From a virus, in the IMG/VR virus record IMGVR_UViG_3300036944_000737, positions 1 to 49,299 of that record: DNA of 49,299 bases, one strand, 5' to 3'. The position numbers and the translations under genes are program-made. Of this stretch, positions 3,903-47,728 are shown piece by piece (position 1 is the first letter of the stretch; each line of letters begins with the position of its first letter). The notes beneath the pieces were generated by a model. It had not been told where the DNA came from. It saw only the letters and a program-made list of their open reading frames with translations, and made no database searches.

Positions 3903-4324
3903 GGCTCAATCCTCGAAACCTGCACGCCGGCCTCGGCTAACATGATGGCCGCCGCCTCGAACTCTTCGGCCGGCATGGATGTCTGGTTGGGGCCGTAGAT
4001 CACGGCCGCGACGCCCGCCTGGATCAGCGTTCGTGCGCAGCCGGAGCAACAGGCGTGCGTCGTGTAGACCGTGCAGCCCGCCGCCCGGATGCCCTCGCGC
4101 GCCGCGAAGGCGACAAGGTTGGCCTCGGCGTGGCTGGCGAACAGATATTTCGCCGGGCGCTCCCGGCGCTCCGGGGTGTCCTCGACGCCGCGCGGCGGCC
4201 CGTTGAAGGCGCAGAGCCGCACCTCCCGGTCGGGCCCGACCAGCACGGCGCCGACCTGCGTGGAGTCCTTGGACTTCAGCGCGGCATGGGCCGCAAAGCC
4301 ATAGAGATATGTCTGCCAATTCAT
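3899..4324 (-). CDS. Deoxycytidylate (dCMP) deaminase family protein
   Basis: Protein of 141 residues. The zinc-dependent deaminase signature is present: SHAEANL near residue 64 and CCSGC near residue 95, supplying one His, two Cys and the catalytic Glu. The family converts dCMP to dUMP and feeds dTMP synthesis. It overlaps the methyltransferase upstream (ATGA) and the polymerase downstream (ATGA), so the three are translationally coupled. No thymidylate synthase was found in the window. A broader cytidine-deaminase role cannot be excluded. Confidence 0.88.
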   Translation of the reverse strand: MNWQTYLYGFAAHAALKSKDSTQVGAVLVGPDREVRLCAFNGPPRGVEDTPERRERPAKYLFASHAEANLVAFAAREGIRAAGCTVYTTHACCSGCARTLIQAGVAAVIYGPNQTSMPAEEFEAAAIMLAEAGVQVSRIEP

Positions 4325-5484
4325 CCGAACGCCCCTGCACTGTCTTGCGCCATTTCCGACATCATCCGAACGCCGCTTGATCGGACGGCGGTTGTGAAGG
4401 CACGGATGAATTGCGCCGCGGCTTCCGGGTTGATGGCATTGCCGTAACCGCGCAGTCGTCCCATTCGGGCGGGTATCCCATGAGCCAACGGGAATGTGCC
4501 GGACTCAACTGGCCGCCATTTACCATCCCGGCAGAACAGCCAGTCAGGATCTCGCCAGAAGCTGTCAGGCGCATCGGCCCCGCGACCGTGCATAATCTGA
4601 CCGTCTGCCTGCTGCTGTCCGTGTTGCCCGCCGGGTTGTTGCCGTTCTGGGCTGGTGTTCCCGCCATTGGCGTCGGCCAACCCGCAAGCCCCGCCACCAG
4701 TCCGATCCGATCCGACCTGTTGCGCTCCGACCCGTCGGGGTTGATCCCGGTCGTGGCCATGCCCGGTGAGTCTTTCCAGTCGCGCGTTGTCGGCATCGGC
4801 CAACCGGCCACCGCAGATGCTTGGCTTAGATCCTGCGGCGACCCTTTGCGGCCTATTTCCGACAGCGACCCCTCGGCCGTTCTCACATTCTTCTCTCCGT
4901 CCGCTGCCCTTGACGTCGGCCAGCCGCTCCGCGGCGATGGCACCGAAGAAGGTTCGCTGTCGGATGTTCGGCGAGCCGACGCCCGCAGCCGGGATATCGC
5001 TCGCCCCGACGGTGTAACGTGCGGCTTCCAGCCGATCTGATAGATCGTCGAACCAAGCCCATGCAGGTTCTGCCGCAGCTCTGTTTCGAGCGCCGCTTGC
5101 AGCTTTTCCGAACACTTCCGCGCTGGCGACCTGTTCGCCAAACAGCATTCCGGGGCGAGCGGCCCCGACCAGGCTCGCAAATTTGGGGGAGAGATGTCTT
5201 GCATCGTTGCGGCCCTCCTGGCGGCCGGCGGGGCTGAAGGGTTGGCAGGGCGGCGACCCGGTCCAGACCGGCCGGTCGTCGGGCCAGCCTGCGCGCCGAA
5301 GCGCCCGCGACCAGCCACCGATCCCCGCGAAGAAATGACATTGCGTGAAGCCGCGAAGGTCGTCCGGCTGCACGTCGAGGATCGAGCGGCGGTCAACGAC
5401 ACCGGCGGCGATGTGGCCGCAGCGGATCAGTTCCTCCAGCCAGTCGCAGACCGCCGGATCGTTGTCGTTATACCAGGCCGTCAT
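4321..5484 (-). CDS. C5 cytosine-specific DNA methyltransferase
   Basis: Protein of 387 residues starting at [10 protein letters not shown]; the ATG overlaps the previous stop (ATGA) and the longer upstream frame is a shadow. Motifs: I (FFAGIGG, near 51), IV with catalytic Cys (PPCQPFS, near 80), VI-like GEQV (near 115), VIII (RQRTFF, near 175), and X-like GYGNAI (near 346). The 190-340 region is low-complexity and probably forms the target-recognition domain. It methylates cytosine in DNA, likely protecting phage DNA from host restriction. It ends in AFG-stop, and its last 12 residues ([12 protein letters not shown]) match those of the second methyltransferase (SEMTQDNKRAFG). A second recognisable frame overlaps it. 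Confidence 0.88.
4341..4361 (-). promoter_or_regulatory. 21-bp repeated element, copy a
   Basis: Read on the minus strand this is TGTCGGAAATGGCGCAAGAC plus a final A. It differs by one base from copies at 6389 and 43020 and shares its right half with one at 11887. The flanks form a TGTC/GACA dyad. Here it lies inside the 3' end of the methyltransferase gene, about 17 bases upstream of the dCMP deaminase start. Promoter element or operator is inference. Confidence 0.5.
4362..5204 (-). CDS. Overlapping second frame in the C5 methyltransferase gene (possible overprinted or frameshift product)
   Basis: A different minus-strand frame is open over the 3' 840 bases of the methyltransferase gene (280 residues from ATG at 5204; it stays open back to 5402). 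It is not random-looking: [32 protein letters not shown], repeated GWPTP/GWPMP units and [19 protein letters not shown] match a tail type I know from phage methylase-like proteins. The repeated LADA units of the main frame are the same DNA as the GWPTP units here. It also ends in AAFG-stop. Whether it is translated separately, by frameshifting, or is a relic is unknown. Confidence 0.4.
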
Positions 5485-5711
5485 CCGAACACGTCCTCCG
5501 GGGCGACCTTCTCGGGGACCGGGTGGATCGCGGCCACGGTTGCTTCGCCGTCGAGGGCGCCCAGAAGCGCCACGACCGGATCGTCCGCGGTGACACAGCG
5601 CCAGCCGCCGTCGGCGGTCTTGCGGTTGCCCTGCCAGCGCCCGTCCGTGGTGCGCCACAGCGTCAGCCCCGTCATGCCGCGCGCTGCGGCGGTGCGGACC
5701 AGGGCGTCCAT
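5481..5711 (-). CDS. Small hypothetical protein, FG C-terminus
   Basis: About 76 residues from ATG at 5711; a GTG at 5714 is an alternative. The ATG fits a GGAGG about 8 bases upstream and overlaps the previous stop (TGATG). The sequence has two W-rich beta-like stretches (LTLWRTTDGRWQ, GGWRCVTADDP). It ends in EDVFG-stop, whose TTCGGATGA also holds the start of the methyltransferase. No family recognised. Gene order suggests a link to the methyltransferase or replication module. Confidence 0.7.
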   Translation of the reverse strand: MDALVRTAAARGMTGLTLWRTTDGRWQGNRKTADGGWRCVTADDPVVALLGALDGEATVAAIHPVPEKVAPEDVFG

Positions 5712-5911
5712 CACACGGGCCTCCCGCAGTCGTCGCAGCGCGCGTACCGGCCCGACGCTTCGTCGATGGCCGTCCCGTGGCCGGCGCGCATCGCCAGGAT
5801 CGTCGCCCAGATCCGGTCCTTGTCGGGGTGCCGGTCGATCTCCAGCACGGAGAACGGCTCCGCGCCATAAGCCCGCGGTGACGGGGCGATCTCTTCATTC
5901 AGCAAAGTCAT
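5711..5911 (-). CDS. Small hypothetical protein with C-terminal CxxC
   Basis: 66 residues starting MTLLNEEIAP. The start lies inside the end of the upstream gene (17-base overlap) and the stop overlaps the next start. The middle resembles a short helical domain (DKDRIWATILAMRAG) and the end carries CDDCG, perhaps half of a metal site. The longer upstream extension in this frame is a shadow. No known function. Confidence 0.6.
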   Translation of the reverse strand: MTLLNEEIAPSPRAYGAEPFSVLEIDRHPDKDRIWATILAMRAGHGTAIDEASGRYARCDDCGRPV

Positions 5912-6092
5912 CTCGTGCTCCCATGCCCAAGGATCGGAAGAATTTGTCGTGGTGGGGTTGTGCGGGTGCCGGGTCGCCTTTCGCCCGGCGCTTGCGGTGC
6001 CACAGCGCAGTTCCGATGCGCCGGTTGTCCGAGTTCCGCTCGGCCTGGGTTGGCCGGGCGGCACGGATGAAGTGCTCGCCCTTCCAGTCCAT
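5895..6092 (-). CDS. Small basic hypothetical protein
   Basis: 65 residues starting MDWKGEHFIR. The ATG shares a base with the stop of the GapR-like gene (TGATG) and the stop overlaps the next gene. Rich in Arg and His, which would suit nucleic-acid binding, but no motif is recognised. Supported by tight operon packing, not homology. Confidence 0.55.
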   Translation of the reverse strand: MDWKGEHFIRAARPTQAERNSDNRRIGTALWHRKRRAKGDPAPAQPHHDKFFRSLGMGARDDFAE

Positions 6093-6334
6093 CAGCCGAA
6101 GACGCCAAGGCGATCCGCGTAGAGGCCGATGGCCTCGCGCGTCTCCGCGTCCTTGGCGCGCAGCGACAGGATCGCGCTGAATGCCTTCATGTCGTAGCCG
6201 AGAGATTTCGCCTCGGCCTTGACATCCTTGATCTGCTCGGCGATCTCCTTCTGCTCTTCCTTCAGGTTCTCGACCCGCGAGAGCAGCTTTTCGAGATCGG
6301 CGTCGCCGCTGTTCGACTTTCCTTCGTCGGCCAT
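6092..6334 (-). CDS. GapR-like (DUF2312) DNA-binding protein
   Basis: 80 residues, close to the length of alphaproteobacterial GapR. Nearly all of it is the two-helix coiled-coil core: LEKLLSRVENLKEEQKEIAEQIKDV, then AEAKSLGYDMKAFSAILSLR, which aligns by eye with the GapR/DUF2312 pattern. In Caulobacter, GapR encircles overtwisted DNA ahead of replication and transcription. A phage copy beside the SSB gene could assist phage replication or compete with the host protein; that is inference. SD GGAGG is 7 bases upstream. Ends GVFG-stop. Confidence 0.78.
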   Translation of the reverse strand: MADEGKSNSGDADLEKLLSRVENLKEEQKEIAEQIKDVKAEAKSLGYDMKAFSAILSLRAKDAETREAIGLYADRLGVFG

Positions 6335-6365: not shown

Positions 6366-6392
6366 GACAGCGGCCCGGCGTAGGCCGCTGTC
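6366..6392. other. GC-rich stem-loop between SSB and GapR-like genes
   Basis: Perfect 10-bp inverted repeat GACAGCGGCC / GGCCGCTGTC with a 7-base loop, in the 77-base gap upstream of the GapR-like gene and touching repeated element copy b. On the minus strand it is not followed by a T-run, so it looks more like an attenuator, RNA-processing or operator structure than a classic terminator. Confidence 0.55.
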
Positions 6393-6409
6393 TTGCGTCA
6401 TTTCCGACA
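6389..6409 (-). promoter_or_regulatory. 21-bp repeated element, copy b
   Basis: Minus-strand sequence TGTCGGAAATGACGCAAGAC plus A, identical to the copy at 43020-43040. It starts 2 bases after the SSB stop and lies about 55 bases upstream of the GapR-like start. This intergenic copy shows that conservation does not depend on coding. Function unknown. Confidence 0.55.
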
Positions 6410-6411
6410 AA

Positions 6412-7041
6412 TCACCCAAACAAACCCGCGGCGCCGGCGCCCGATTTGGTCTCCGCAGGCGCTCCGCCCTCGTCTTCGATCTTCTCGAAGTGGTCTTCCG
6501 GGGCCGCGCTGCCGCCACCGCCGAGGCTTTCGCCGTCCTTGGCCTTCAGGATCATCGACGTGCCGAAGGTGATGCCCTTGCCGTTCTCCTTGTTCTCCCA
6601 GGTGAAGGCGTTCAGCACCGCGTAGCCGTAGTCGCCGCTCTTCAGTTCGTCCTTGCTGGCGATCGGCAGCAGCTTGCCGTTCAGCAGCTTCGGCCGGTAT
6701 TCTTCGCCGGATGCGCAGCGGATGAAGGTGTGGCCGGGGAAGCCCGCGTGCGGTTCGCCGGTCTTCTTCGACTTGCCCTGCTTGCCATCGCCGTCGAGGA
6801 AGGGCGACTTGATGATCCCGTCCTTGATCATCTGGATGGCCTTGTCGCCCCATTCCTCCTTGGCGGCTTCGGCGGCGAGGTTGTGCAGCGCCGAGAGGTC
6901 GCCGCTCTTCGGGAACAGGATCGTCACGTTCCACTGTTTCTTGCCCGACTGCGTCGTTTGCAGTTCGAACAGGCCCTGGGTGAACGCGAAGCGACCAAGG
7001 AGGCCGACTTTCTGGGTGGAGAGGTCTTGCGATCGAGCCAT
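6412..7041 (-). CDS. ssDNA-binding protein, DUF2815 / gp2.5-like
   Basis: 209 residues. Motifs such as FPGHTFIRC, YRPKLLNGK and GDYGYAVLNAF fit DUF2815 phage proteins, predicted OB-fold ssDNA-binding proteins that travel with DUF2800 and family-A polymerases, as here. The last 45 residues are a disordered acidic and glycine-rich tail (EKIEDEGG...) ending in hydrophobic LFG, analogous to the acidic tip of SSB or T7 gp2.5 that ends in Phe and recruits partners. Start ATG has AGGAG 8 bases upstream. Likely protects ssDNA during replication and recombination. Confidence 0.85.
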   Translation of the reverse strand: MARSQDLSTQKVGLLGRFAFTQGLFELQTTQSGKKQWNVTILFPKSGDLSALHNLAAEAAKEEWGDKAIQMIKDGIIKSPFLDGDGKQGKSKKTGEPHAGFPGHTFIRCASGEEYRPKLLNGKLLPIASKDELKSGDYGYAVLNAFTWENKENGKGITFGTSMILKAKDGESLGGGGSAAPEDHFEKIEDEGGAPAETKSGAGAAGLFG

Positions 7042-7045: not shown

Positions 7046-8443
7046 TTACTCCTGGATGGCTGTGAAATGTTGCTCGACCGGCGTGATCGCCGGGCGAATG
7101 GACCCGTCCAATCGGACGAGGTTCGTGCTGCTGCTCTCTTGCGAGGACAGCCCTGCCAGTGCCGACGCATCGGCCTTGGCTTTCTTCAGCGCGTCCCGAA
7201 CCTGTTTCGGGGTGCGGATCTTGGGGGCGTTCAGCAGCTTGTCGTCTGCCAGCCCCGCCGCGCGGGCCGCCGCGATGGCCTTCTTCTCAGCCTCCGCGTC
7301 GATCCATTTCTCCCGCCCGACCTTGTCGACGAGGCCATAGCCCGGTGCGGGCTGGCCCATCTCGGCCATGCGGTGTTCATGCGCCCTGACCTGCTTGATC
7401 CAGTCCTCGACCATGTCGAGCAGGTCGAGGCGCCGGGCGCGTTCCTCCGGCGAGCCGCTGTCAGGCGCGTTGGCCAGCTTCGCCTCGTCGGTGATCGGGT
7501 CGAAGTGCAGCCCGACCGCGTCCTCGGCACGCTTGCGCAGCGCCGGGCAGGAGCCCGCGGCCTTGCAGAACGTCTCGCGGCAATGGTCGCCCGGCGTCAG
7601 CCAGGTATCGGCCCACGCTTCTTCGGTCAGCGTGCCGGTGATCATGGCGCGGGCCTCGATCGCGGCTTTCGCGCGGCCCATCGCCCGCAGCATCTCCACC
7701 GACCATTCGACGAGATCGCCGACGGTGAAGGTTTCGCTGCGGATCCGGCCTTCCTTGTGAGGGGCGCGGGGCTGGACGATCGTTACCGTGACGCGGTCAA
7801 CGTCCAGCCCCTGATTGGCTAGCATCGCGCCGAGGGCATAGGTGCGCAGCTGCGGATTGCCCATCGCCTCCACCACGACCCCCCGGCCGCCTTTCAGATC
7901 GACGATCTCCAGCCGACGTTCTGCCGGCAAATAGATCACCGCGTCGCCCGTGCCGCCCGCGTCGAAGGGCGGGTCCAGAGCTTCGAGGCTGAAGCGTTGC
8001 TCGATCCACAACGTGTTGACGTGGCCATACTGATCGCCCGTCCCGCCGCAGTAACCGCACGGGCTGCTGTCTGTAGGGCAGTCCTTGGCCACACCGGAGC
8101 CGCGGCACTCGTCACATTTTTCGCCGGCGATCCAATCCTGCTCGCCGAACCCCTTCCGCACATAGTCGACGTATTGCTGCGCCGTGTCGGCCATCTCTTC
8201 GTCGACCTCGAAGGAGAATTTCTTCCCTTTCTCGGTCGTGCCGATGAACCGATCGGCGTCGCCGCCGTCCCGCAAGCACCGCTCACCGAGTTGATGCGCA
8301 CAGGTTCCCCAATCGGCGGCTTCGCCGCTGGTATCGGGCAGGTTCATCGTCAGGGCCAGCGCGCCGGGACAGGCAAAGTTGCGCTTGGCCGCCGACGCGG
8401 ACCACACCGAATGCTCCCGGTCCGCGTGATGTTGCTGTGTCAT
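7046..8443 (-). CDS. DUF2800 protein, PD-(D/E)XK/Cas4-like nuclease predicted
   Basis: 465 residues starting MTQQHHADREH. Early WSASAAKRNFACPGALAL is the typical N-terminal helix of Cas4/RecB-type nucleases. A Cys-rich insert (CDECRGSG...CGYCGGTG) resembles a DnaJ zinc finger. The nuclease core follows: GTGDAVIYLP, then LEIVDLKGGRG (IVDLK is the D-x-K element), then NPQLRTYALGAM. Downstream CRETFCKAAGSCPAL may bind metal. With the SSB and polymerase it forms a common phage recombination/replication set. Exact activity unproven. Confidence 0.78.
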   Translation of the reverse strand: MTQQHHADREHSVWSASAAKRNFACPGALALTMNLPDTSGEAADWGTCAHQLGERCLRDGGDADRFIGTTEKGKKFSFEVDEEMADTAQQYVDYVRKGFGEQDWIAGEKCDECRGSGVAKDCPTDSSPCGYCGGTGDQYGHVNTLWIEQRFSLEALDPPFDAGGTGDAVIYLPAERRLEIVDLKGGRGVVVEAMGNPQLRTYALGAMLANQGLDVDRVTVTIVQPRAPHKEGRIRSETFTVGDLVEWSVEMLRAMGRAKAAIEARAMITGTLTEEAWADTWLTPGDHCRETFCKAAGSCPALRKRAEDAVGLHFDPITDEAKLANAPDSGSPEERARRLDLLDMVEDWIKQVRAHEHRMAEMGQPAPGYGLVDKVGREKWIDAEAEKKAIAAARAAGLADDKLLNAPKIRTPKQVRDALKKAKADASALAGLSSQESSSTNLVRLDGSIRPAITPVEQHFTAIQE

Positions 8444-9113: not shown

Positions 9114-9388
9114 TCGACCCACTCCCCGCGCAGCACGCAGTGACGCGCGGGCATCATGGTCTTCGTGGCCGCGTTGAACTGCATCGTGGTTTCGTGCTGG
9201 AGGCAGGGCCCCTTGCGGTCCTCGTTGATGCCCGCCTGGATTACGAGACCGAGGCCGAGCATCAGCCAGACAGCGGCCGGGGCGAAGGCTGGGGCGAAAC
9301 CGAAATTGCGGCTGGCCGCGAAGCTGAACCACCCAAAGAGCACGGCCACGTAGCCGACCACCACCGCGGCAATGACAAAGCCCATCAC
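9110..9388 (-). CDS. Small membrane protein
   Basis: 92 residues (or 91 from the second Met). Two hydrophobic segments, about residues 3-22 (GFVIAAVVVGYVAVLFGWF) and 35-53, predict an inner-membrane hairpin; the last 40 residues are polar. It overlaps the preceding stop. Function unknown; superinfection or membrane-anchoring roles are only guesses. Confidence 0.65.
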   Translation of the reverse strand: MMGFVIAAVVVGYVAVLFGWFSFAASRNFGFAPAFAPAAVWLMLGLGLVIQAGINEDRKGPCLQHETTMQFNAATKTMMPARHCVLRGEWVE

Positions 9389-10296
9389 ACCGCCTCCCGA
9401 CCATAGGGGTTGTTCTCGATCGCGGCCCGGATCGCCGCGACGGCCTTGCCGTAGGCTTCCGGCCGGTCCGGGATCTTCGACAGCCCGTCGATGCCCTTGC
9501 CGAGGGCCGACACGAAGATGGCCGCGCGGTCAGCGATCATGTTGGCCATCTGCGGGGGTGCCAGGCCGGCACCGTCGAACTTCTCGCCGTAGGCGACAAG
9601 CGCGTCGATCACGTCCTGCTTGGTGGCGGTCGGCGCCGGGGCGGGCGCGGCATCTTCTTCCTTCGGGGCCTCGTGGGCTTCCAGCAGCGCGATCGCATCG
9701 ACGATCTTGTCCGCCGGGCAGTCCGGGATGTCGCAGCCGATGATCTTCGGCACCATCTTGACCGTGTAGGCCATGCCGAATTTCTTCTGGAAGACGCCGA
9801 CGGCCTTGCGCAGGTCATCCAGCGTCAGGTCGTCGCCGCGGGTTCCCGCGACCTCGGCGGCCTCGTCAGCAGCATCTTGCGCTGCGTCCTCGGGGCTGGT
9901 CGGGTCGATGCGCTCTTCGCCGGTCGAGATATTGGCCGCTGAGGCGGTCGTCTCCGTCGAGGTCTCGATAGCGTCGGCCGCTTCGTCCTCGGCGATCTCT
10001 TCCTTGGTGCGCCGCGCCTTGCCCGGCGAGGGCTTGCCGCGTTCGCGCTGCGGTGTCTCGGCCTTGGGGGCCGGCTCGGCCGCGCGGGGGTCGAATTCCG
10101 CGTTGGCCGCTTCGACGGCCGTGCTACCGCGGCTGCCGACGGGTGTCACGTCGTTCGGCGTGTCGGGCTGCGCGGCGGCCGGCGCGCTTTCATACCGGCC
10201 AAAGCCAAGGGCCGACATGGCGTTGTCAATGTAGTGCGACACGGCACCAGAGCCGACGTATTCCTCGGGCACGAGGATTTCGATTTTCAGTGTCAT
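9385..10296 (-). CDS. Hypothetical protein, disordered middle with conserved C-terminal domain
   Basis: 303 residues. Residues 1-40 form a small ordered start. About 40-150 are Ala/Glu/Thr-rich, low-complexity and probably disordered. About 150-300 look folded: LDDLRKAVGVFQKKFGMAYTV, IIGCDIPDCPADKIVDAIALLE, then a second helical region. GGAGG precedes the start. The gene lies between a helicase and small genes, suggesting a replication or recombination accessory. No family recognised. Confidence 0.65.
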   Translation of the reverse strand: MTLKIEILVPEEYVGSGAVSHYIDNAMSALGFGRYESAPAAAQPDTPNDVTPVGSRGSTAVEAANAEFDPRAAEPAPKAETPQRERGKPSPGKARRTKEEIAEDEAADAIETSTETTASAANISTGEERIDPTSPEDAAQDAADEAAEVAGTRGDDLTLDDLRKAVGVFQKKFGMAYTVKMVPKIIGCDIPDCPADKIVDAIALLEAHEAPKEEDAAPAPAPTATKQDVIDALVAYGEKFDGAGLAPPQMANMIADRAAIFVSALGKGIDGLSKIPDRPEAYGKAVAAIRAAIENNPYGREAV

Positions 10297-11636
10297 CTGG
10301 GTAGAACCTCCTGGATTGTCTGGACCTTGCGGAGCAGGGTGCTTTGGATCGCTTCGTGGACGGACCCGGCAATCGCAGCGACCCGAACGCGGGGCTGCCG
10401 GGTTTGGCTGTGGTTCGTCACGCGAAGGGCCATCTGGGCGCCGTCTTTTGGCACCCAGGACATTTCGACGAACATCAGCTCCGATGCGGCAGAGAGGTCG
10501 ATTGCCTCCCCGGCCGCCTGGATCTGCGCGAGGAACACCCGCGCCTCCCCATTGTGAAAAGCGAACACCGCGGCTTCGCGGTCTGTCGGCTTTGTAGATC
10601 CGTCAATTCCGACAACGCCGACGTGCGAAAGCCCTTCCGCCAGCTCGCGGCCCACATCCTTGTGCCAGTAGGCGAGGACGATCTTGTCGAGGCCGCAGTC
10701 GAACTCTTCCTTGATGGCCTCCACGACGGCCTTCGCCACGATCCCGCCGGTCAGCCGCAGCAGCGGCCCGAGGTGCATCTCCAACGCCTTGGTGTCGCCC
10801 GCGTCGATCGCAGCGATCACCTCGGCGCCGACCTTGTCGGCTTCGCGCCGGGCGCGCTCCGAGACGATCAGCGGGAAGGTCTCGTAGATGGGCGGCAGGA
10901 TACCCACGGCCTGCTGCGTGCGGCGCAGCATCAGGCCGTCGATCCGGTCGCGCAGCTCCTCGAGATTGCGCCCGCCGGTGATGACTGTGATCGTGCTCCA
11001 CGCCGACAGCTTCTTCGGCCGCGTCGTGCAGTAGCGGTTCAGGAAGGCGTCGGGCGACGACACGTTCGGCCATCCCCTCGCCGGGTCGGCCACCAGCCGC
11101 TCCGGGGAGCCACCGCGCAGCATCGGATAGAGGTCATTCGGCGAATTTGGCATCGGCGTACCTGTCAGGCACCAGACGCGCTCTGCGGTCCCCGCCAGCG
11201 CGTAGCGCGTCAGCAGGTCGTCCTTCTCGCCGAAGGTGCCAAACACCGCCTGTGTGCGCTTGGCGTCAAAGTTCTTGGCGTAGTGGGTCTCGTCGAGGAT
11301 CAGCAGGCCCCAGCGGCGGGACAGAAGTTGCGTCCGTGTCGCGGCTACGGCGATCGTCGGCCAGCCCACGATGGCGACATCCGCATCGGGGGCCAACGTG
11401 TCCTTGGGCGTCAGGATCTGGACCTTGCGCCCAAGAGCCGACCAGTCCGCGAAGCCTTTCCGCCAGACGCCCCGGCCCGAGGCCGTCGTGACGACCAGGA
11501 TCGTTTCGGCCAGGCACATATCGGCGGCCATGATCGCGGCGCCTGTCTTGCCGACCCGCGGCGCGTCGGCGAGGATCGCAAACGATCGCTTCGCCAGGAA
11601 TGTCGCGCCGTCGATCTGGTGGGGCATGGGTTTCAT
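10293..11636 (-). CDS. SNF2/DEAD-type superfamily 2 helicase
   Basis: 447 residues. Motif I ADAPRVGKTGAAI near residue 23 (Walker A), motif II LILDETHYAKN (DETH box) near 113, motif III LTGTPMPNSPNDLYP near 160. The C-terminal RecA-like lobe includes AYWHKDVGRELAEGL, GEARVFLAQIQAAGEAIDLS and QMALRVTNHSQTR (motif VI-like). Phage SNF2-type ATPases remodel or unwind nucleoprotein during replication or recombination. It overlaps both neighbours by 4 bases and does not carry the FG end (VLPR). Confidence 0.88.
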   Translation of the reverse strand: MKPMPHQIDGATFLAKRSFAILADAPRVGKTGAAIMAADMCLAETILVVTTASGRGVWRKGFADWSALGRKVQILTPKDTLAPDADVAIVGWPTIAVAATRTQLLSRRWGLLILDETHYAKNFDAKRTQAVFGTFGEKDDLLTRYALAGTAERVWCLTGTPMPNSPNDLYPMLRGGSPERLVADPARGWPNVSSPDAFLNRYCTTRPKKLSAWSTITVITGGRNLEELRDRIDGLMLRRTQQAVGILPPIYETFPLIVSERARREADKVGAEVIAAIDAGDTKALEMHLGPLLRLTGGIVAKAVVEAIKEEFDCGLDKIVLAYWHKDVGRELAEGLSHVGVVGIDGSTKPTDREAAVFAFHNGEARVFLAQIQAAGEAIDLSAASELMFVEMSWVPKDGAQMALRVTNHSQTRQPRVRVAAIAGSVHEAIQSTLLRKVQTIQEVLPR

Positions 11637-11851: not shown

Positions 11852-11886
11852 GTTCACCTGAAAATCTTGTTGGTCATGTCGGCTCT

Positions 11887-11907
11887 TGTCTTGCGTCATA
11901 CCAGACA
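11887..11907 (-). promoter_or_regulatory. 21-bp repeated element, copy c (diverged left half)
   Basis: Minus-strand TGTCTGGTATGACGCAAGAC plus A. It shares the core ATGACGCAAGACA and the TGTC/GACA flanks with the copies at 4341, 6389 and 43020. It lies about 35 bases upstream of the gene at 11633-11851 and just after the 11914 gene. Confidence 0.5.
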
Positions 11908-11913: not shown

Positions 11914-12216
11914 TCACGGTTCGTCAAGTGGGATCTTCACGCCGTTCACCTCGGCGCCGGTCAGGGCGTAGCCCACCGTGTCCACCCAGCTGTCGTAATG
12001 GTCGGGGGTCTCGCACAGACGGGCCAGCTTCAGCAGAACCATCATGGGCGACACGTCCTGCGCGGTGATCATCACCTCACGCCCCGTGTTGGCCATGTAG
12101 GCGGTCCAGAACCGGGCGATCCGGTCAAAGTTGTCCTCGGGCGTCCCGTAGGCCCCGCGGCGCGCTCCGTCGACGATGCGCTTGGCCTCGTCGGCGATGT
12201 GGGCCTTGACGTTCAT
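11914..12216 (-). CDS. DUF6378-like phage protein
   Basis: 100 residues starting MNVKAHIADEAKRIV. GARRGAYGTPEDNFDRIARFW, AQDVSPMMVLLKLARL and HYDSWVDTVGYA are characteristic of DUF6378 phage proteins. The fold resembles small all-alpha phage accessory proteins; biochemical role not established. Its ATG sits in the TTCGGATGA end of the RusA-like gene, with GGAGG 7 bases ahead. Confidence 0.75.
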   Translation of the reverse strand: MNVKAHIADEAKRIVDGARRGAYGTPEDNFDRIARFWTAYMANTGREVMITAQDVSPMMVLLKLARLCETPDHYDSWVDTVGYALTGAEVNGVKIPLDEP

Positions 12217-12641
12217 CCGAATGCCTCCTGTTCGGCGCCGATCGGGCGCACCGTGATCCACATGCCCGGCTTGTCGCCGTAGCGTTTCTCGAAGGACGAC
12301 CGCACGACTTGGCCGTCGTCGCCCCACACGACCATGTTCAACGCATCGACGCTCTTCTGAAAATTATCAAAATCGGGCTTTCGCGTCGGCCATTCCGTGC
12401 CTTCTCGGGCCGCTGTCTGGCGCTTCTTCGGCCACGATTGGGCGATCGGCACCACGACAAGCATATCCATCTGCAAGGGCCCCTCCAGCGGCGGGCGGTC
12501 TCCCATGACCTGCATCGCGGCGTATTTCAGCGCGGCCTCGAAGGCCCGCGTCTTCTCGGGCGTGTAGGTGTGGCCGGTGGCCTTGGCGAACCGGGGCCGA
12601 CCTTTGGCCACTGGAACGCCAAGGACAACGATCTCGATCAT
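12213..12641 (-). CDS. RusA-like Holliday junction resolvase
   Basis: 142 residues from MIEIVVLGVPVAKGRPRF. RusA-type signature: N-terminal KGRPRF, YTPEKTRAFE, and the acidic centre KPDFDNFQKSVDALN followed by DDGQVV. The family cuts four-way DNA junctions and debranches DNA before packaging. ATGA overlap with upstream gene. Ends EQEAFG-stop; the codons for its last residues double as the SD and start region of the next gene. Confidence 0.88.
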   Translation of the reverse strand: MIEIVVLGVPVAKGRPRFAKATGHTYTPEKTRAFEAALKYAAMQVMGDRPPLEGPLQMDMLVVVPIAQSWPKKRQTAAREGTEWPTRKPDFDNFQKSVDALNMVVWGDDGQVVRSSFEKRYGDKPGMWITVRPIGAEQEAFG

Positions 12642-12907
12642 CCGAACGCCTCGGGACCTTTCCCGATGCCCGGGTGCCGCGGCCAAGGCCGCCACGCTAT
12701 CGGCGGAACGTCCTTGGTGAACATGCACCAACGGCCTTCCTTGGCCAGCCAGCGCGAGGGCGTCACTGTCGTCCCGTCGGCCCCAGCGACGAATATCGTG
12801 ACCGGGACGTGCTCCTGCACCTCGACCTCGTTCTTGCCGATCTTGCGGGTGATGACGCGGGTCTCGCCACGCGGCGCGGAGGCCATGTCGAAGTTCCAGC
12901 CGGTCAT
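12638..12907 (-). CDS. DUF551-like hypothetical protein, FG C-terminus
   Basis: 89 residues. DMASAPRGETRVI near the start and WRPWP near the end (PPIAWRPWP) match the pattern of DUF551-like phage proteins. Beta-rich. Role unknown. Overlaps both neighbours. Ends GPEAFG-stop, with GAGGCGTTCGGATGA serving as SD and start for the RusA-like gene. Confidence 0.7.
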   Translation of the reverse strand: MTGWNFDMASAPRGETRVITRKIGKNEVEVQEHVPVTIFVAGADGTTVTPSRWLAKEGRWCMFTKDVPPIAWRPWPRHPGIGKGPEAFG

Positions 12908-15858: not shown

Positions 15859-16095
15859 ATGAGGTGTTTGAACTGCGGCCATGAAAACGACCGCGTGTGG
15901 TACGAACCCCTACGCCAGCCGCTTCGCCCTTACCTTCGCGAAGGCGCGACCCCGGCAAGGGAGAAGGCGTATAGGCGGTGGGCCTGTGCCAAATGCAGGC
16001 GTTACCACTTCCCCGATGGGTCGCTGTACAAGAACCCGTTCCCCGAGACTGCCGAGGCGTTAACCGAACATTCCGGCGATCCCCTCGCCGAATAG
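15859..16095 (+). CDS. Zinc-ribbon hypothetical protein
   Basis: 78 residues with CLNCGHEN near the start and CAKCRRYHF near residue 43, two CxxC knuckles of a small zinc ribbon. It stands alone after attP on the plus strand, with GGGG upstream, and its end overlaps the transglycosylase gene on the other strand by 36 bases. Could be a lysogenic-conversion gene. Function unknown. Confidence 0.55.
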   Translation: MRCLNCGHENDRVWYEPLRQPLRPYLREGATPAREKAYRRWACAKCRRYHFPDGSLYKNPFPETAEALTEHSGDPLAE

Positions 16096-16722
16096 CGCCT
16101 GCTTGCGGCGCTGTGCTTCGGCCTCTCGTTCCTCACCTCGGCGGCGGATCTCCGCGCCGGGGTCTGGAGCCGCCGCGCCGAAGGACGGCATGATCGCGGG
16201 CGTGCCGAGGCCGCCGGCAGCGCCGAACATCCCCGCCAGCCCCATGTTGACCGGCGGCACGGAAGGGCCAAAGGACAGGTTCTCGCCGCCCAGCAACGCG
16301 GCGGCCTTGGCCTGGTGCGGCGCCATCTGGTTGTTCACCTTGTCGGCCACCGTGCCGGGCGCGCCGCCATTGTTCGCGTCGCTGGCGTTGTAGCGCCCCG
16401 GCGCGCCGGCGTTGACAATGCTATAGGCGTCCAGCAGCCCCATGCCTGGCTTGTAGCCGTTCTGCCGCAGGTAGCGCACGACCGCGCCATCCGGGCCCAG
16501 CTGCGACCCGACCGGGTCTTGCCAGTTCACGCCATACTGCCGCGCTTGTGGCTCGCCGAACTGGATCAGTCCGCGGTGTTGGCCCCACTGCGTCGTCGGG
16601 CCTGCCTGCGTGGGCGAGAACGTCCCGCCGGTCTCGTAGGAGATGATCGTGGCCAGATCGGCGGGGTTCATCCCGAGCGACCGCGCCGACGCGATGATCC
16701 CGTCCCGGATACGCGGGTCCAT
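16060..16722 (-). CDS. Virion lytic transglycosylase-like protein
   Basis: 220 residues. NPADLATIISYETGGTF, HRGLIQFGEPQARQYG and LLDAYSIVNAG match lysozyme/transglycosylase-like domains of phage internal virion proteins; the Glu in SYETGG is the likely catalytic acid. The C-terminal 90 residues are Gly/Ala-rich with a charged helix. Probably opens peptidoglycan during DNA entry. Ends AGMFG-TAA; an internal LFGEGIAGMFG doublet is notable. Last gene of the late operon. Confidence 0.75.
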   Translation of the reverse strand: MDPRIRDGIIASARSLGMNPADLATIISYETGGTFSPTQAGPTTQWGQHRGLIQFGEPQARQYGVNWQDPVGSQLGPDGAVVRYLRQNGYKPGMGLLDAYSIVNAGAPGRYNASDANNGGAPGTVADKVNNQMAPHQAKAAALLGGENLSFGPSVPPVNMGLAGMFGAAGGLGTPAIMPSFGAAAPDPGAEIRRRGEEREAEAQRRKQALFGEGIAGMFG

Positions 16723-37826: not shown

Positions 37827-38300
37827 TCACCCGAAAGCGTTGGGCTCTGGCCCCTCGATCTGCTCCTCCGCGGGCGTCACGTCTACGGCTTGCCCGGCCA
37901 GCTCCAGCTGGCGCTGGCGTAGCCTGGCGATGCGCCCGGCCAGCTCATCCGCCGTCATCTCATGCGGTTCCTTGGCATCCGCAGCGGCATCCGCGGCGCC
38001 TAGCGTGCGGTCCATCACGATCTTGGCGGCCGTGATGCGGTTGCGCGTGTTTTCCGCGTCATCCAGCAGCACCTTGTGCAAGAGCCCGATCGCCGCCGGC
38101 AGTAGATCCCCGTACAAGCGTTCCGTCTGGATCCGGCGCACCTCGGCCAGCACGCAAGGCCGCTCCACAAGCCGCGGGATTGCCGTTCGCGGCGTGGCGT
38201 ACTCGGCCACCTTCGCCGCCAATTGCGGATCGCCCGACTTGGCCCATGCTTCCGCAAAGGTCTTTTCTTGCTGCGACATGACCGGCCGTCGACCTTGCAC
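37827..38300 (-). CDS. terS: Small terminase subunit-like protein, FG C-terminus
   Basis: 157 residues from GTG at 38300, preceded by AGAGGGGCGG; MSQQEKTF at 38279 is an alternative. EKTFAEAWAKSGDPQLAAKVAEYATPRTAIPRLVERPCVLAEVRRI is an HTH-plus-coil layout typical of phage small terminases (key parts FAEAWAKSGD, AIPRLVERP). C-terminal helices and acidic tail EEQIEGPEPN-AFG. Binds pac DNA and loads TerL. No start codon follows the FG end, so the ending is not an RBS by-product. Confidence 0.72.
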   Translation of the reverse strand: MQGRRPVMSQQEKTFAEAWAKSGDPQLAAKVAEYATPRTAIPRLVERPCVLAEVRRIQTERLYGDLLPAAIGLLHKVLLDDAENTRNRITAAKIVMDRTLGAADAAADAKEPHEMTADELAGRIARLRQRQLELAGQAVDVTPAEEQIEGPEPNAFG

Positions 38301-38818: not shown

Positions 38819-39211
38819 GTGAAAGACACCCTGCCCCCTCACGTGATCGACGCGCGCGGCCCGACACGCTGGGACGCCGAAGGCAAGAAACTGCGCAAGC
38901 GGGCCCTCGGCTGGAAAGCGACGCCCTATCGCTACACGCCGGATCAGGACGCGCACCGCTACGCCGAGGCGTTGGGCGTAGACGCAAAAGAGGCCCGCGA
39001 ACGGGCCGCTGCGCAGCGCGCGATATCACAAGAGGTGATCGCCACGACGCGCACCGTGATCGACGCGACCGGCCCGACCGATTGGGCCCGCGATGCCAAG
39101 TCCAAGGCGCTGCGCCAGCGTATCAACACCGCCGTTCACAAGCGTCTGTATGCCTCTTCCGCACATCTGCGCAACCGCTACGCCAAAGACCCCCAAGCCG
39201 CATTCGGTTAG
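38819..39211 (+). CDS. Hypothetical protein, FG C-terminus
   Basis: 130 residues from GTG with AAGGAACCCGAGCC upstream. Two similar segments: PHVIDARGPTRWDAEGKKLRKRAL (8-31) and RTVIDATGPTDWARDAKSKALRQRI (77-101), indicating an internal duplication of a VIDA-x-GPT-x-W unit. Basic. Ends QAAFG-TAG and is followed by 74 non-coding bases, so the FG end is not tied to an overlapping start. Confidence 0.65.
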   Translation: MKDTLPPHVIDARGPTRWDAEGKKLRKRALGWKATPYRYTPDQDAHRYAEALGVDAKEARERAAAQRAISQEVIATTRTVIDATGPTDWARDAKSKALRQRINTAVHKRLYASSAHLRNRYAKDPQAAFG

Positions 39212-40792: not shown

Positions 40793-43003
40793 TTACCCAA
40801 ATGCGTTACCGTCATACGATTGCGCCGCGCCCGTGTCGCCCGGTTCGGGCGAAAAATGCGTCTCGACTTCCCCGCCTGCAAGCCGCCCCAGGGCCCCCTC
40901 CAGCACCCGATAGCCGCGCCGTTTGGTGCGGCTGTCCCGGACCTCTTCGGCGATCAGCACCCCGCCCCAGGCCGCCAGCATCTGCGCCGCGGCTGTCGCC
41001 TTCAGCCCGAACTCTGCCGCCATGATGCGCACTGCGTACCGCTTCGATTGAGGGGCCGAAGCCCAAGGCTCGCCTGCCTCCCACGCCGCCTCCATCGCCC
41101 GCAGGATCCGCAGCTTGATCGGCCCCGCGCCGGGCCCGTCACCTCGCCCGGGGCCCTCGGCCGGCCCTGCGTCGGCGCGGGCGATCGACAGGGAGGAGTG
41201 GCCGTCGCCCAGGTCAATCACGCCAAAAGCGATTTGGCTGGCCCAGCCGTCGGGGGCGGCCTTCAGTTTCTCCATCGTCATGGTGCGGATCTCGGACGCG
41301 CCGTTGCGGTCCAGCCTCATGATGAAGTCGGCCGCGCCCCGCAGGACCGTTGAGCCGCGCAGATCGCCGCTCTTGCCCGCGTGGTGGATGCCGACCACGG
41401 CGCACTTGAACGCCTCCCGGACGGCGCCACAGGCTTCCACGAAAAGCGTCATGTCCTGCTGCCCGTTCTCGTCCGCGCCGGGCATGGCGCGCGAGACGGT
41501 ATCGACGAAGACGATGGCCGGGTCGACGGAGGCCGACGCCACGGTGCGCAGCAGCCGGCCGACGTCGTCCTTCTTCATGAAGTCGATGGTCTGCTCGATC
41601 ACAAAAAAGTTTTGGGAGAAATCCTGGATACCCCGGGCCTTGTGCCACGCCGCGATGCGGTGGAACAGATCGAACGATCCTTCGGCGGCGATGTAGATCA
41701 CGGTGCTCTTTTCCGGTCTGACCGTGATCTGGTCGCCCAGCCAGTCGGGCAGTCCGTGGGCGATGGACAGGCCCATGTCGAGCGCTACGAAGGATTTGCC
41801 GATGCCGGGGTCTGAATACAGCAGCCCGAAGGAGACGTCCGGGATGTGGCGGTCGATCAGGAACGTCGGCGGGGGTCTGTTCGCCAGCTCCGCGATCGTC
41901 AGGAGCGGGTAGACGTCGCCCGCCTTGTCATCCTCGCGTTCCTTCGTCGCGGCCTGATCGAAGATCGAGGGTTGTGTCTCGGGGATGGGTTCGAAATGGA
42001 CCTCGGCGGTCGTGAACCTGCCGCCCGAGGCGCGCTCCGCGACATCGTAGAGCCAGGACGCGCCGCGGCGGAATGGCGGCTTCATGCGGCGCCAGTCGGC
42101 CTCCACGACGCCGGGTTCGTTCTCGCCGTCCTGCCACCGGCCGCACCAGTCCGAGAATATCTCGAAGGCCGTCGGCTCGTCGTCGGGGAGCGCCGCCTTG
42201 ATCGCGTAGCCGAAATCCCGGTACGCCTCGCGCGACGGGAAGGTGGCCGACGTGTTGGGCGTGGCGTTGACCGCGGCTCTGACTGCGCGTTCCTCGCCCC
42301 GCAGGCTCTCCTGGTTGACCTCGGCGCCCGAACCCCCTTCCGTGACCAGCGCACGGGCGTTGGGGAGCGCGGAGCGCAGGGCCTCCAGAAACTCTTGCAT
42401 CCGCTCGGGCGTCGTGACCGTCAGCTCGTCCGCCGGGATCAGCGCACGGGGCCAAGTGTAGGGCTGGCGCGTGCCGGGGTGGATGCCGTGGGCGACGAAC
42501 TGCTTGCGCTCGCCCAGGATCTCCACGCGCTCGATCGGGCGGCCTTCGGAATTGAGGGGGCCGAACTCGACGCGGGCGTAGGGCATGTCCGGGGCGACGC
42601 GGATCAGATAGAGGGCCTTCGGGTAGCGGCCGACGCGGATCGGCAGATCGCCAAAAAAGGTTTGGGCGGTATCGCGGATCGTGCGGGCGCTTGCCTCGTC
42701 GAGCGTGTCCGCGTCGATCGCGTAGACGCCATGCCCGGTCTTGATCCCGGTGCCGGCCCCCATCGCGTGCCAGCGCGTCAGATCGGCCTCGTCGGCCTCG
42801 TAGGGCACCCAATCGAACCCGAACCACGCACCAGCACGGCCCTTGACGCCGGGCGTCTTGCCGCGCGCGTCTTGCGAGGTGCCGATGCGCGGGGCCAGCG
42901 CCGAGCCCTCGCTGATCGGCGCGTCGGGCGGGATGATCGGGATCAACCGCTGATAGCCAAGCGCCCACAGCTTCGTGAAGTCACTCATGGTCTGCAACAT
43001 CAC
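40793..43003 (-). CDS. Primase-polymerase / RepA-like helicase fusion
   Basis: 736 residues from GTG (43003); ATG at 43000 is equally possible. N-terminal bifunctional primase-polymerase (AEP) domain: TRWHAMGAGTGIKTG, VYAIDADTLDEAS (DxD, near 95), VGRYPKALYLIR. Middle D5N/PriCT-like region (FSDWCGRWQDGENEPG). RecA-fold helicase: Walker A YSDPGIGKSFVALD near 400, Walker B AIVFVDTVSRAMPG near 500, GIHHAGKSGDLRGSTVLRGAADF. C-terminal winged-helix-like region. Ends GNAFG-TAA with no downstream gene start. Replication initiator candidate acting at the adjacent iterons. Confidence 0.88.
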   Translation of the reverse strand: MMLQTMSDFTKLWALGYQRLIPIIPPDAPISEGSALAPRIGTSQDARGKTPGVKGRAGAWFGFDWVPYEADEADLTRWHAMGAGTGIKTGHGVYAIDADTLDEASARTIRDTAQTFFGDLPIRVGRYPKALYLIRVAPDMPYARVEFGPLNSEGRPIERVEILGERKQFVAHGIHPGTRQPYTWPRALIPADELTVTTPERMQEFLEALRSALPNARALVTEGGSGAEVNQESLRGEERAVRAAVNATPNTSATFPSREAYRDFGYAIKAALPDDEPTAFEIFSDWCGRWQDGENEPGVVEADWRRMKPPFRRGASWLYDVAERASGGRFTTAEVHFEPIPETQPSIFDQAATKEREDDKAGDVYPLLTIAELANRPPPTFLIDRHIPDVSFGLLYSDPGIGKSFVALDMGLSIAHGLPDWLGDQITVRPEKSTVIYIAAEGSFDLFHRIAAWHKARGIQDFSQNFFVIEQTIDFMKKDDVGRLLRTVASASVDPAIVFVDTVSRAMPGADENGQQDMTLFVEACGAVREAFKCAVVGIHHAGKSGDLRGSTVLRGAADFIMRLDRNGASEIRTMTMEKLKAAPDGWASQIAFGVIDLGDGHSSLSIARADAGPAEGPGRGDGPGAGPIKLRILRAMEAAWEAGEPWASAPQSKRYAVRIMAAEFGLKATAAAQMLAAWGGVLIAEEVRDSRTKRRGYRVLEGALGRLAGGEVETHFSPEPGDTGAAQSYDGNAFG

Positions 43004-43782
43004 CCGAACGCCCTCTTGTTGTCTTGCGTCATTTCCGACACGGCGTCCGCGATGCGCTGCTCCGCGATCGCGAAGTAGCCCTCGTCGCGCTCGATCCCGA
43101 TGAATGCTCGGCCGGTATTCACGCAGGCGACGCCGGTCGTGCCGCTGCCCATCGTGAAGTCCAGAACCGTTTCGCCGGGGTTGGTGTAGGTGCGGATCAG
43201 ATATTCCATCAGAGCGACGGGCTTTTGGGTTGGGTGAAGAACTTCGATGTTTGGGTTGGCGAAGTCGAGAATTTGGCGCGGGTAGCCTTCAGCGGTTATC
43301 GTCCTGCTAAGTTTGTGAGACTTTCGGCTCGGACTGACGCCCTTCGTTCCTGCGTAGTTTTCTGGCCGCTTCCATTCCTTCGCGACTGTCCTGACGTCCT
43401 GCGGAAAGTACGGCATGTTCACTTTCGCGCCGTTGGCCGTGGAGCCCGTCGAAAAGACTGTGACGACCTCTACGTCTTTCAGCGGTTTCAGCTTGGCGTT
43501 GGTGAACCCGCTCGGGCGCGACTTGCGCCAGTACCAGTCGTATTTGAACTGTCCGAGGTTACTCGCGCGCATCAGACTGCTGAACGGCTCTTGCCCGAAC
43601 AGTACCGCAGGTGCGGCGGGCTTGAGCACGCGCCGGACCTGCGACCACATCGGCTCGAGCGGGATCACCGCGTCCCAGGAACAGGCCGTCGTACCGTAGG
43701 GCGGATCGGTCAGCACCAGATCGACCGACCCGTCCGGGATCTCGGCCATGCGGTCGAGGCAATCGCCCAAAAGTAGCGTCAC
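43000..43782 (-). CDS. DNA adenine/N4-cytosine methyltransferase, DPPY type
   Basis: 260 residues from GTG (TLLLGDCLDRM), with GGAGG upstream; GTGA overlap with preceding gene. Motif IV LVLTDPPYGTT near 26 and motif I FTMGSGTTGVAC near 211, in the beta-class order; LHPTQKPVALMEYLIR is typical. Most likely N6-adenine. Ends SEMTQDNKRAFG, matching the C5 methyltransferase tail. Protects or marks phage DNA. Confidence 0.9.
   Translation of the reverse strand: MTLLLGDCLDRMAEIPDGSVDLVLTDPPYGTTACSWDAVIPLEPMWSQVRRVLKPAAPAVLFGQEPFSSLMRASNLGQFKYDWYWRKSRPSGFTNAKLKPLKDVEVVTVFSTGSTANGAKVNMPYFPQDVRTVAKEWKRPENYAGTKGVSPSRKSHKLSRTITAEGYPRQILDFANPNIEVLHPTQKPVALMEYLIRTYTNPGETVLDFTMGSGTTGVACVNTGRAFIGIERDEGYFAIAEQRIADAVSEMTQDNKRAFG
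43020..43040 (-). promoter_or_regulatory. 21-bp repeated element, copy d
   Basis: Identical to copy b at 6389. It lies 17 bases upstream of the primase-helicase start, inside the last codons of the methyltransferase gene (SEMTQD). Shares with copy a a following GGGCGTTCGG and start codon. Confidence 0.55.
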
Positions 43783-47005: not shown

Positions 47006-47208
47006 TGCATCGTTCCTTCAAAGGGGGAGAACAGGGGCCCGTCGAGGATCATCGCCGGGACGGTCTTGTGCTTCGCCGCGGCTTTCATGACGCGGAAGAG
47101 CCGGGCGGCGTCGTCCTCGGCGCGGTCCTTCAGCGGGCCGGGCGGGATGGCGTTCGCAGCGCAGCAGGCGTCGGCCCATCGCTGCGCGGGGGTGCGGGCG
47201 TCCATCAT
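47002..47208 (-). CDS. Small hypothetical protein
   Basis: 68 residues, helical (QRWADACCAANAI, LKDRAEDDAARLFRVMKAAAK). ATGA overlaps on both sides. No family recognised. Confidence 0.55.
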   Translation of the reverse strand: MMDARTPAQRWADACCAANAIPPGPLKDRAEDDAARLFRVMKAAAKHKTVPAMILDGPLFSPFEGTMQ

Positions 47209-47357
47209 TGGAACACCCGCTCGACCGCGCGGGCGCCCCAGATCAGCACCGTGCCGGCACCGATACCGGCCAGCACCGCGATCGTGAGGGTAATGCGGCG
47301 GATGCGGTTCTCGCCCTGCCGCGCGAGTTCGTTGTATCTGCTCCAGTCGAAAGACAT
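47205..47357 (-). CDS. Small single-pass membrane protein
   Basis: 50 residues from MSFDWSRYNELAR. TM segment ITLTIAVLAGIGAGTVLIWG near residues 22-41. Function unknown. Confidence 0.55.
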   Translation of the reverse strand: MSFDWSRYNELARQGENRIRRITLTIAVLAGIGAGTVLIWGARAVERVFQ

Positions 47358-47370
47358 CGGGGGTGATCCT

Positions 47371-47577
47371 CTATCCAAAGGGGTCCGGGGTTTCAGGGAA
47401 GGCAAGGGCCGCTGTCTCGGCCCAGGTGTTGCCCGTGAGGGCCTGAACGGTGCCGTCCGGCAGATGAACTTCGAGCGTGATCGGATCCGCAGGGTCTATC
47501 GCGTAGATCGCGAAGCCGAGCTGCGGGAACCGCGCCCGAAGATCATCCAAAGACGTTTGGCGCGGGCTGTTCGTCAT
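47371..47577 (-). CDS. Small hypothetical protein, FG C-terminus
   Basis: 68 residues. LDDLRARFPQLGFAIYAIDPADPITLEV, TWAETAALAFPE: small beta-rich domain common next to phage regulators. Ends PDPFG-TAG. Overlaps the preceding gene by 35 bases, so that gene's FG end is inside its coding sequence. Confidence 0.65.
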   Translation of the reverse strand: MTNSPRQTSLDDLRARFPQLGFAIYAIDPADPITLEVHLPDGTVQALTGNTWAETAALAFPETPDPFG

Positions 47578-47728
47578 GGCCCAGCTTCTGCCGCACCGCG
47601 TCTTGCAACCATTGCGCCTGGCTGACGCCCTGCGCCTCGGCCGCTGCGGTCATTCCGTCCTTCAGCGCCTCGGGCATCCAGATCGTCGTCCGCTTCACGG
47701 GTTCGTGGTATTTTCGATAAGCTGCCAT
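47543..47728 (-). CDS. Ribbon-helix-helix (CopG/Arc-like) regulator, FG C-terminus
   Basis: 61 residues from MAAYRKYHEPVKRTTIW. VKRTTIWMPEALKDGMTAAAEAQGVSQAQWLQDAVRQKLG is a classical RHH layout (strand TTIWMP, two helices). SD AGGGAGACGCG matches that of the Cro-like gene. First gene of the minus-strand accessory/replication operon; probably regulates it. Ends PNVFG-TGA. Confidence 0.78.
   Translation of the reverse strand: MAAYRKYHEPVKRTTIWMPEALKDGMTAAAEAQGVSQAQWLQDAVRQKLGHDEQPAPNVFG

Follow-up and report, generated by a model that had tools for sequence, protein, structure and literature searches.

Why do so many unrelated proteins of one phage end alike? The question is raised by the IMG/VR virus record IMGVR_UViG_3300036944_000737, of which the whole stretch of 49,299 nucleotides was analyzed (referred to as the window). 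An initial annotation had listed thirteen proteins ending in a nonpolar residue, Phe and Gly, and had proposed that this end is a tag read by one hub protein of phage or host. When the frames were re-read, all 13 ended in [A/V/L/M/P]-F-G-stop at the coordinates collected in Table 1, and the overlapping frame 4362-5204 ended likewise. Twelve of the 13 lie on the minus strand, and 38819-39211 is the only one on the plus strand. As set out below, this end is the local form of a tail shared by about a dozen protein families of related phages, and it is spelled in concert within each genome.

The window termini are identical over 127 bases (1-127 = 49173-49299), as expected for a complete phage genome. 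In a six-frame count, Phe-Gly precedes 17 of its 1629 stop codons. With our own gene caller, FG ends were found in 12 of 63 called genes, where 0.34 are expected from the FG rate within proteins; among uncalled open reading frames of at least 20 amino acids, 4 of 528 end in this way. The C5 methyltransferase gene (4321-5484), which competes with a frame overlapping it, was missed by the caller. Among the tagged genes, codons and stop codons differ, as had been noted initially. One end is probably a chance occurrence rather than a tag proper, judging from its homologues: only 1 of the 10 members of the 16060-16722 family carries it. The proteins 12638-12907 and 38819-39211 belong to no family of at least eight members, and the comparison is silent on both tags.

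A C-terminal Phe tail in related phages

Relatives were collected by a TerL search, which yielded 33 loci (14 of the underlying records were taken), and by searches of viral contigs with the single-stranded DNA-binding protein (SSB), the family A DNA polymerase (Pol) and an alignment of primase-helicases (the best 80 of 329 matches). A single primase-helicase sequence as query found no relatives in viral contigs. As the SSB alignment was searched with a pattern that contains the SSB's own tail, the choice of those loci partly favours tagged SSBs. A single scan of genome contigs added one locus on a contig of Rhodopseudomonas pseudopalustris and another on a 3-kb contig of a metagenome-assembled genome. 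RHph_N65 (N65), the EBPR siphoviruses 2 and 5 and Mae-Yong1326-1 (Mae) were compared as well, and the wider comparison sets comprise loci of at least 9000 bases.

Thirteen records measure 45 to 51 kb. In 11 of them, Phe stands second from the end (position -2) in 11 to 13 genes per genome, where about 2 are expected. The other two are G001, with 7 such genes, and Mae, with 2; only Mae has no real enrichment. Phe counts at -1 and at -3 to -8 were mostly near expectation in the same records. The GenBank annotation of N65, which is independent of our caller, gave Phe at -2 in 14 of 69 genes (2.4 expected), and in 46 tag-rich genomes the count was 421 of 1954 genes (64.3 expected). A lack of FG-type ends in relatives had been named as evidence against the tag; the relatives turned out to be enriched.

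Alignment of 133 distinct tails from 17 records gave the consensus [D/G/S/N] at -4, [I/V/L] at -3, Phe at -2 and [G/D/A/E] at -1. As read from these sequences, the wider tail is [D/G/S/N]-[I/V/L/A]-F-[G/A/D/E]-stop, and the FG ending, initially taken for the motif, is merely the window genome's spelling of a hydrophobic-F-[G/A/D/E/S...] tail. Upstream of it, acidic residues and proline are commoner and basic residues rarer. No enrichment of Phe at -2 was found in four phages of greater distance whose SSB is gp2.5-like, namely Javan630 (2 vs 1.9 expected), BPP-1 (1 vs 1.4), A1432 (3 vs 2.2) and TCUEAP1 (2 vs 2.7), although the primase of A1432 ends in DAFD.

To see which proteins carry the tail, they were sorted into families by BLAST, and a wider set of 110 genome clusters was scored for Phe at -2 (second figure in each case). 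The tag was present in every member of the putative TerS (14/14; 28/28), RusA (12/12; 34/43), primase-helicase (12/12; 42/78), GapR-like (11/11; 52/64), f24 (11/11; 40/41), f25 (9/9; 30/32), Rv2179c-like exonuclease (6/6; 15/15), f30 (5/5; 11/14) and N6/N4 methyltransferase (3/3; 20/28) families. Among the SSBs it was found in 11 of 12 (52/72), the exception being ESV2 with SLFGNQ. In the alignments, the tag Phe is invariant after a linker that does not align.

Other families are devoid of the tag. It was absent from Pol (0/12; 0/68), the SNF2 helicase (0/13; 0/61), the small helical-domain protein f18 (0/12; 0/56), integrases (0/11) and repressors (0/11), and, in agreement with the initial annotation, from portal (0/16) and TerL (0/16; 0/17). 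DUF2800 proteins carried it in 1 of 12 cases (5/76). Two families of the virion region have Phe at -2 in 10 of 17 members (26979-27509, last residue K, E, Q or N) and in 1 of 16 (21026-21673).

Some further ends were observed. Many DUF2800 relatives end in HF[S/D/N][V/I]L[D/E], a conserved end resembling a Leu version of the tag. Relatives of the window TerL (32392-34059) mostly have GGF, with Phe last, at the C-terminus, and the window protein has GGW. The 26979-27509 family has a partial match, over 34 residues, to an endonuclease VII PHROG.

Selection on the protein and dialects at residue -3

A tail of this kind might be a by-product of DNA or RNA signals, if a sequence serving as a start or stop signal, as an operator or in a gene overlap happened to encode it. 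ATGA overlaps do occur at 45 of 137 tagged gene ends as against 159 of 751 untagged ones, and an operator-like repeat directly precedes two of the window tags. However, for pairs of identical residues within a genome, codon agreement does not exceed the level predicted from usage: at -3 in 128 of 401 pairs (189.6 expected), at -2 in 412 of 584 (413.2) and at -1 in 66 of 139 (64.9). All three stop codons occur after tails, and one locus carries the tail in two frames. Fixed codons and likeness at the nucleotide level alone, which had been considered as a sign against a tag, were thus not found, and the initial view that the ends are not simply a by-product of ribosome-binding sites agrees with both the codon counts and the two-frame locus. 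We regard a nucleic-acid origin as hardly credible.

The two-frame locus, formed by the C5 methyltransferase (frame A) and the gene overlapping it (frame B), provides the strongest sequence evidence for selection at the protein level. Among 34 records with this locus, both frames are tagged in 24 (L157 is a near duplicate of G003, and L171 of L170), neither in 6 and only frame B in 1; in 3, a frame or stop is missing. Near the 3' end, frame B is 58 to 76% and frame A 54 to 74% identical to 8 of 9 relatives; for the ninth, L114, the values are 74% for frame B and 37% for frame A. Since codons are not shared and two frames of one locus are both tagged, these comparisons show that the tail is selected as protein, not as DNA.

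The locus itself (4321-5484 / 4362-5402, minus strand) is a long overprinted pair in which both frames match PHROG methyltransferase families, frame B also matching phrog_1008; it is kept in relatives including EBPR siphovirus 2. Two methylases of the latter phage (L037; 19594-22089 and 24334-26694) contain intein-like Hint and LAGLIDADG domains.

Residue -3 varies among genomes and tends to be uniform within each, a pattern referred to here as the dialect of a genome. This was quantified in genomes with at least two tags, using tails with Phe at -2; SSB was excluded because its -3 residue is mostly L. With 257 tags from 54 genomes, the -3 residue agrees in 409 of 592 within-genome pairs of unrelated proteins. 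Shuffling within families gave a mean of 213 and a maximum of 260 in 5000 shuffles, and a null weighted by the amino-acid make-up of the genomes a mean of 213 and a maximum of 285. After thinning to Pol identities below 75%, 299 of 433 pairs agreed (172 expected), and below 65%, 212 of 314 (136 expected); 0 of 5000 shuffles reached either value. Base composition is not the cause, because all 8 tags of G008 (GC 0.594) have V and 7 of the 8 of G010 (GC 0.592) have I. The effects at -1 (143 vs 128) and -4 (183 vs 167) were weak.

Close pairs of phages illustrate the concerted change. In 5 of 7 families, V in L140 corresponds to A in L105; L187 and L115 differ in 3 of 4, and L165 and G004 in 4 of 5. 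On the polymerase tree, the majority dialect changes 15 times. The 24-kb record L091 was observed to have undergone a concerted change from Phe to Leu: RusA (4602-5078), GapR (10906-11181) and f25 (11380-11610) all end in ALG. No polymerase match was found in this 24-kb record.

Could each family simply have its own tail, alike by chance or descent and without a common reader? Tags are inherited within families, and the genes of the left arm share a history through recombination, both of which would fit. Yet the families are unrelated by BLAST and -3 is nevertheless homogenized across them, and we consider separate tails most unlikely. Independent drift in each family does not explain the concerted changes at -3. 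As far as sequences can tell, these changes strongly suggest a single phage reader that co-evolves with the tags through a pocket for residue -3.

We therefore propose that the tail would be a short linear motif for docking, [D/G/S/N]-[I/V/L/A]-F-[small or acidic]-COOH, placed at the C-terminus behind a linker with many acidic residues and prolines. It would tether SSB, primase-helicase, resolvase, nuclease, methyltransferases, the GapR-like protein, the putative TerS and several small proteins to an anchor, one component of the phage's own replication/recombination complex. This anchor would be encoded by the phage, co-evolve with its clients and have a pocket for -3 and -2. Taken as a whole, including the docking, the single reader with its pocket and the spread from SSB and primase-helicase, which we infer, this docking reading seems probable to us. 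Of the initial proposal, the idea of a functional tag with one hub as its reader has good support, as the tail is kept by family, selected as protein and changed in concert at -3, and docking would follow from it by inference; as to a hub of phage or host, the dialects point to the phage. A further-reaching version, a phage-wide C-terminal address code with one phage reader (possibly f18), about 12 enzymes and dialects private to each lineage, may be correct, with a chance that we put slightly below even.

Possible origin of the tail and candidate readers

Sister phages with the same polymerase module and few tags offer a view of how the tail may have arisen. Their primase-helicases end in SDLFG, EDLFG, NDLFG or MGLFD, and their SSBs in GALFGD, GGLFGE or FGDDEIPF. 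GapR ends in YLAALGLL in some and ALGLFD in others, and RusA in EIYIKKRA or EILVTPLA. Because of these ends, SSB and primase-helicase seem to have been tailed first, which suggests that the tail arose on these two proteins and spread to accessory proteins afterwards. Outgroup SSBs (L135, L142 and L038, the last being the Mae SSB, 18584-19162) were seen to end in DDEIPF, EDDISF or DDDLPF, like bacterial SSB tips.

The tail is also linked to the replication module. In 23 genome clusters that have a relative of the primase-helicase, no Pol, SSB or DUF2800 match was found in the available sequence, and in 19 of these the primase-helicase is untagged. The four tagged exceptions are L211, for which another contig of the same assembly (L141) holds Pol and SSB, and L226, L227 and L249, which lie on contigs of 19 to 27 kb. 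In L225, at 46 kb the largest such record, Pol, SSB and f18 profiles gave no match. It is not tag-rich (Phe at -2 in 3 of 44 genes, 1.3 expected); the tag is present on its putative TerS and absent from its primase-helicase. L225 and the other clusters in which Pol and SSB were not found mostly agree with a tag linked to the module, one putative TerS being independent of it.

An anchor may be sought among the families that are untagged or mostly untagged. In the 46 tag-rich genomes, Pol and DUF2800 were each found in 42, f18 in 40 and SNF2 in 39. Divergent f18 proteins were detected with profiles in G011, L218, L234 and L237; the contigs of L141 (26 kb) and L216 (21 kb) gave no f18 match. Pairwise protein identities of sister phages revealed no gene whose replacement alone tracks the dialect change.

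Six families were then tried for steric complementarity on phylogenetic contrasts, that is, for reader residues that become bulkier as the tag residue becomes smaller. In the f18 C-terminal domain, r reached -0.64 in the strongest column (printed p 0.000, 4000 draws), and values below -0.4 occurred in 5 of 65 columns, with 0.4 expected (p 0.001). DUF2800 was second (11/304, p 0.001) and SSB third (5/168, p 0.008); SNF2 and GapR gave no signal. As f18 and DUF2800 are neighbouring genes, the test is to be read with caution. A first column test pointing to f18 positions was discarded, as it had aligned two different repeats of the f18 domain; a repeat of the test limited to the C-terminal domain still gave the signal, which follows the number of domains, however. 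A structural model of f18 (mean pLDDT, the per-residue confidence of the prediction, 73.4; confident helical part 124-217) had no useful match in the PDB (45 matches, best E 3.9).

These comparisons make f18 a weak lead, and we name it tentatively as the foremost candidate reader. Another protein or the host is a less likely choice, and family A polymerase is unlikely, as are, to the same degree, the SNF2 and DUF2800 proteins taken together.

Several observations weigh against a single phage reader within the replication module, or against particular candidates. V and I are mixed at -3 in G003, G006, L094, L096 and L123, and in L105 the change seen in the other families was not shared by GapR and primase-helicase. 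Few tree pairs are strictly independent: 4 pairs in one case (2.2 agreeing on average, 0 opposed) and 3 in the other (all agreeing). Tagged TerS or primase-helicase occurs in records that gave no Pol or SSB match (L211, L225, L226, L227 and L249), four of them contigs of 19 to 31 kb and L225 one of 46 kb. SSBs and primase-helicases have ends of other kinds in 16 of 78 clusters elsewhere. Dialect changes are about equally frequent on the trees of f18 (7), SNF2 (8), SSB (8), DUF2800 (9) and Pol (10; 33 genomes each), and the five trees point to no particular reader. Co-variation of Pol with the dialect is weak (strongest column p 0.024), and the f18 signal is confounded with domain number (one-/two-domain forms: I 12/1, V 15/7, A 0/4).

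Window features and known docking systems

The tagged genes and the untagged or mostly untagged candidate readers of the window are listed in Table 1.

Table 1. Genes of the window that carry the C-terminal tail and genes considered as its reader.
Feature	Position	Strand	Profile match	C-terminus or role
C5 cytosine methyltransferase (frame A)	4321..5484	-	PF00145 E 2.4e-8; phrog_363 E 1.3e-66	...QDSAGAFG
Overlapping gene (frame B), start uncertain, frame open from 5402	4362..5204	-	phrog_31772 E 2.7e-35	...SDQAAFG
Small protein, family f25	5481..5711	-	none in Pfam/PHROG scans	...PEDVFG
GapR-like DNA-binding protein	6092..6334	-	PF10073 E 2.1e-15	...RLGVFG
gp2.5-like SSB	6412..7041	-	phrog_112 E 4.5e-25	...GAAGLFG
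RusA-like resolvase	12213..12641	-	PF05866 E 8.5e-34	...AEQEAFG
Protein without family match	12638..12907	-		...GPEAFG
Structural-region protein	16060..16722	-	weak PHROG matches only	...IAGMFG (probably incidental)
Putative TerS (name from initial annotation)	37827..38300	-	no family match	...PNAFG
Protein without family match	38819..39211	+		...PQAAFG
Primase-helicase	40793..43003	-	PF13481 + PF09250	...DGNAFG
N6/N4 DNA methyltransferase	43000..43782	-	PF01555 E 1.6e-31	...NKRAFG
Small protein, family f24	47371..47577	-		...TPDPFG
RHH-like protein (name from initial annotation), adjoins f24	47543..47728	-	phrog_13890 E 9.6e-4	...APNVFG
f18, small helical-domain protein, two domain copies in window	9385..10296	-		untagged; candidate reader
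Family A DNA polymerase (Pol)	1680..3902	-	PF00476 E 3.3e-11	untagged; candidate reader by analogy with T7 gp5
SNF2-type helicase	10293..11636	-	PF00176	untagged; candidate reader
DUF2800 exonuclease	7046..8443	-	PF10926, phrog_69	mostly untagged; candidate reader

In N65, it is family f30 that adjoins f24. Operator-like repeats of the form TGTC...GACA, with a core like TTGCGTCATTTCC, were seen in the window at 4332-4361, 6380-6409, 11878-11907, 15682-15711, 37468-37497 and 43011-43040. Two copies lie within methyltransferase ends, directly upstream of the polymerase and primase-helicase side. Copying of tails between genes, considered in view of SEMTxDN shared before some tags, was rejected, as an operator-like DNA repeat overlapping gene ends explains this better. 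Short repeats of the CGGACTTCCG type occupy 40658-40778, the intergenic gap adjoining the primase-helicase, and are possibly an origin or a terminator.

In model phages, one or two proteins of the replisome are known to bear short docking tails at the C-terminus. In the phages studied here, about 12 families per phage share a tail that is respelled in concert and ends even two overlapping genes. The tag probably flags families of no assigned function, such as f24, f25, f30 and others, as partners of the replication machinery, and the co-evolution of dialects offers a route to the reader. If the address-code reading is true, the dialects would shield each phage's replication complex against its host and against rival phages, and the virus would possess a private localization code within the bacterial cell. 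Searches confined to an open-access library, without subscription papers or preprints, brought up no account of dialects or of a C-terminal tag used throughout a phage.

Among known systems, the clamp motif QLxLF also has a short hydrophobic-Phe core on many unrelated DNA-handling proteins that bind one hub. The tails could accordingly be C-terminal versions of this motif, tethering the proteins to the host sliding clamp (DnaN), and a few of them fit well, e.g., NQLDIFG and NQIDLFA. The tag differs, however, in being strictly C-terminal, in having dialects and in lacking enrichment of Gln and Leu at the first two positions: Gln stands at -6 in 19 of 395 tails (14.1 expected) and Leu at -5 in 21 (31.6 expected). 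Position -4 is strongly D/G/S/N, yet the third position of the clamp motif is described as tolerant (PMC11139829). The 15 dialect changes on the polymerase tree are likewise hard to reconcile with a conserved host protein, and we judge the clamp to be a very unlikely reader.

The tip of bacterial SSBs (DDDIPF) is an acidic, Phe-containing C-terminal hub motif as well. Phe is last in the tips of E. coli (DDDIPF) and of HK620 (NDYPPF), and the latter recruits Sak4 (PMC5928155). Another host reader might steer phage proteins or have them degraded, for instance a protein that binds bacterial SSB tips, or else a protease or an adaptor recognizing C-termini, and the outgroup SSB end FGDDEIPF and the DDDLPF of Mae do resemble bacterial tips. 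In the tag, by contrast, Phe is penultimate, and the motif is found on many clients rather than on SSB alone. Moreover, dialects differ among related phages, and a degradation tag on the abundant SSB and ten other proteins would be odd. A host reader of this kind appears quite unlikely.

For docking on an anchor encoded by the phage, the nearest known mechanism, by analogy, is that of T7. Its gp2.5 ends in DEDGDF and its gp4 in SNDTDF, and basic patches of gp5 serve as docking sites for the gp4 tails (PMC12593628). The phages studied here similarly have a gp2.5-like SSB and a primase-helicase with a related Phe tail, beside a family A polymerase. They differ from T7 in that Phe is second from the end rather than last, and in that about 12 further protein families are tagged and have dialects; in these phages, docking would be expected by analogy with the tails of T7.

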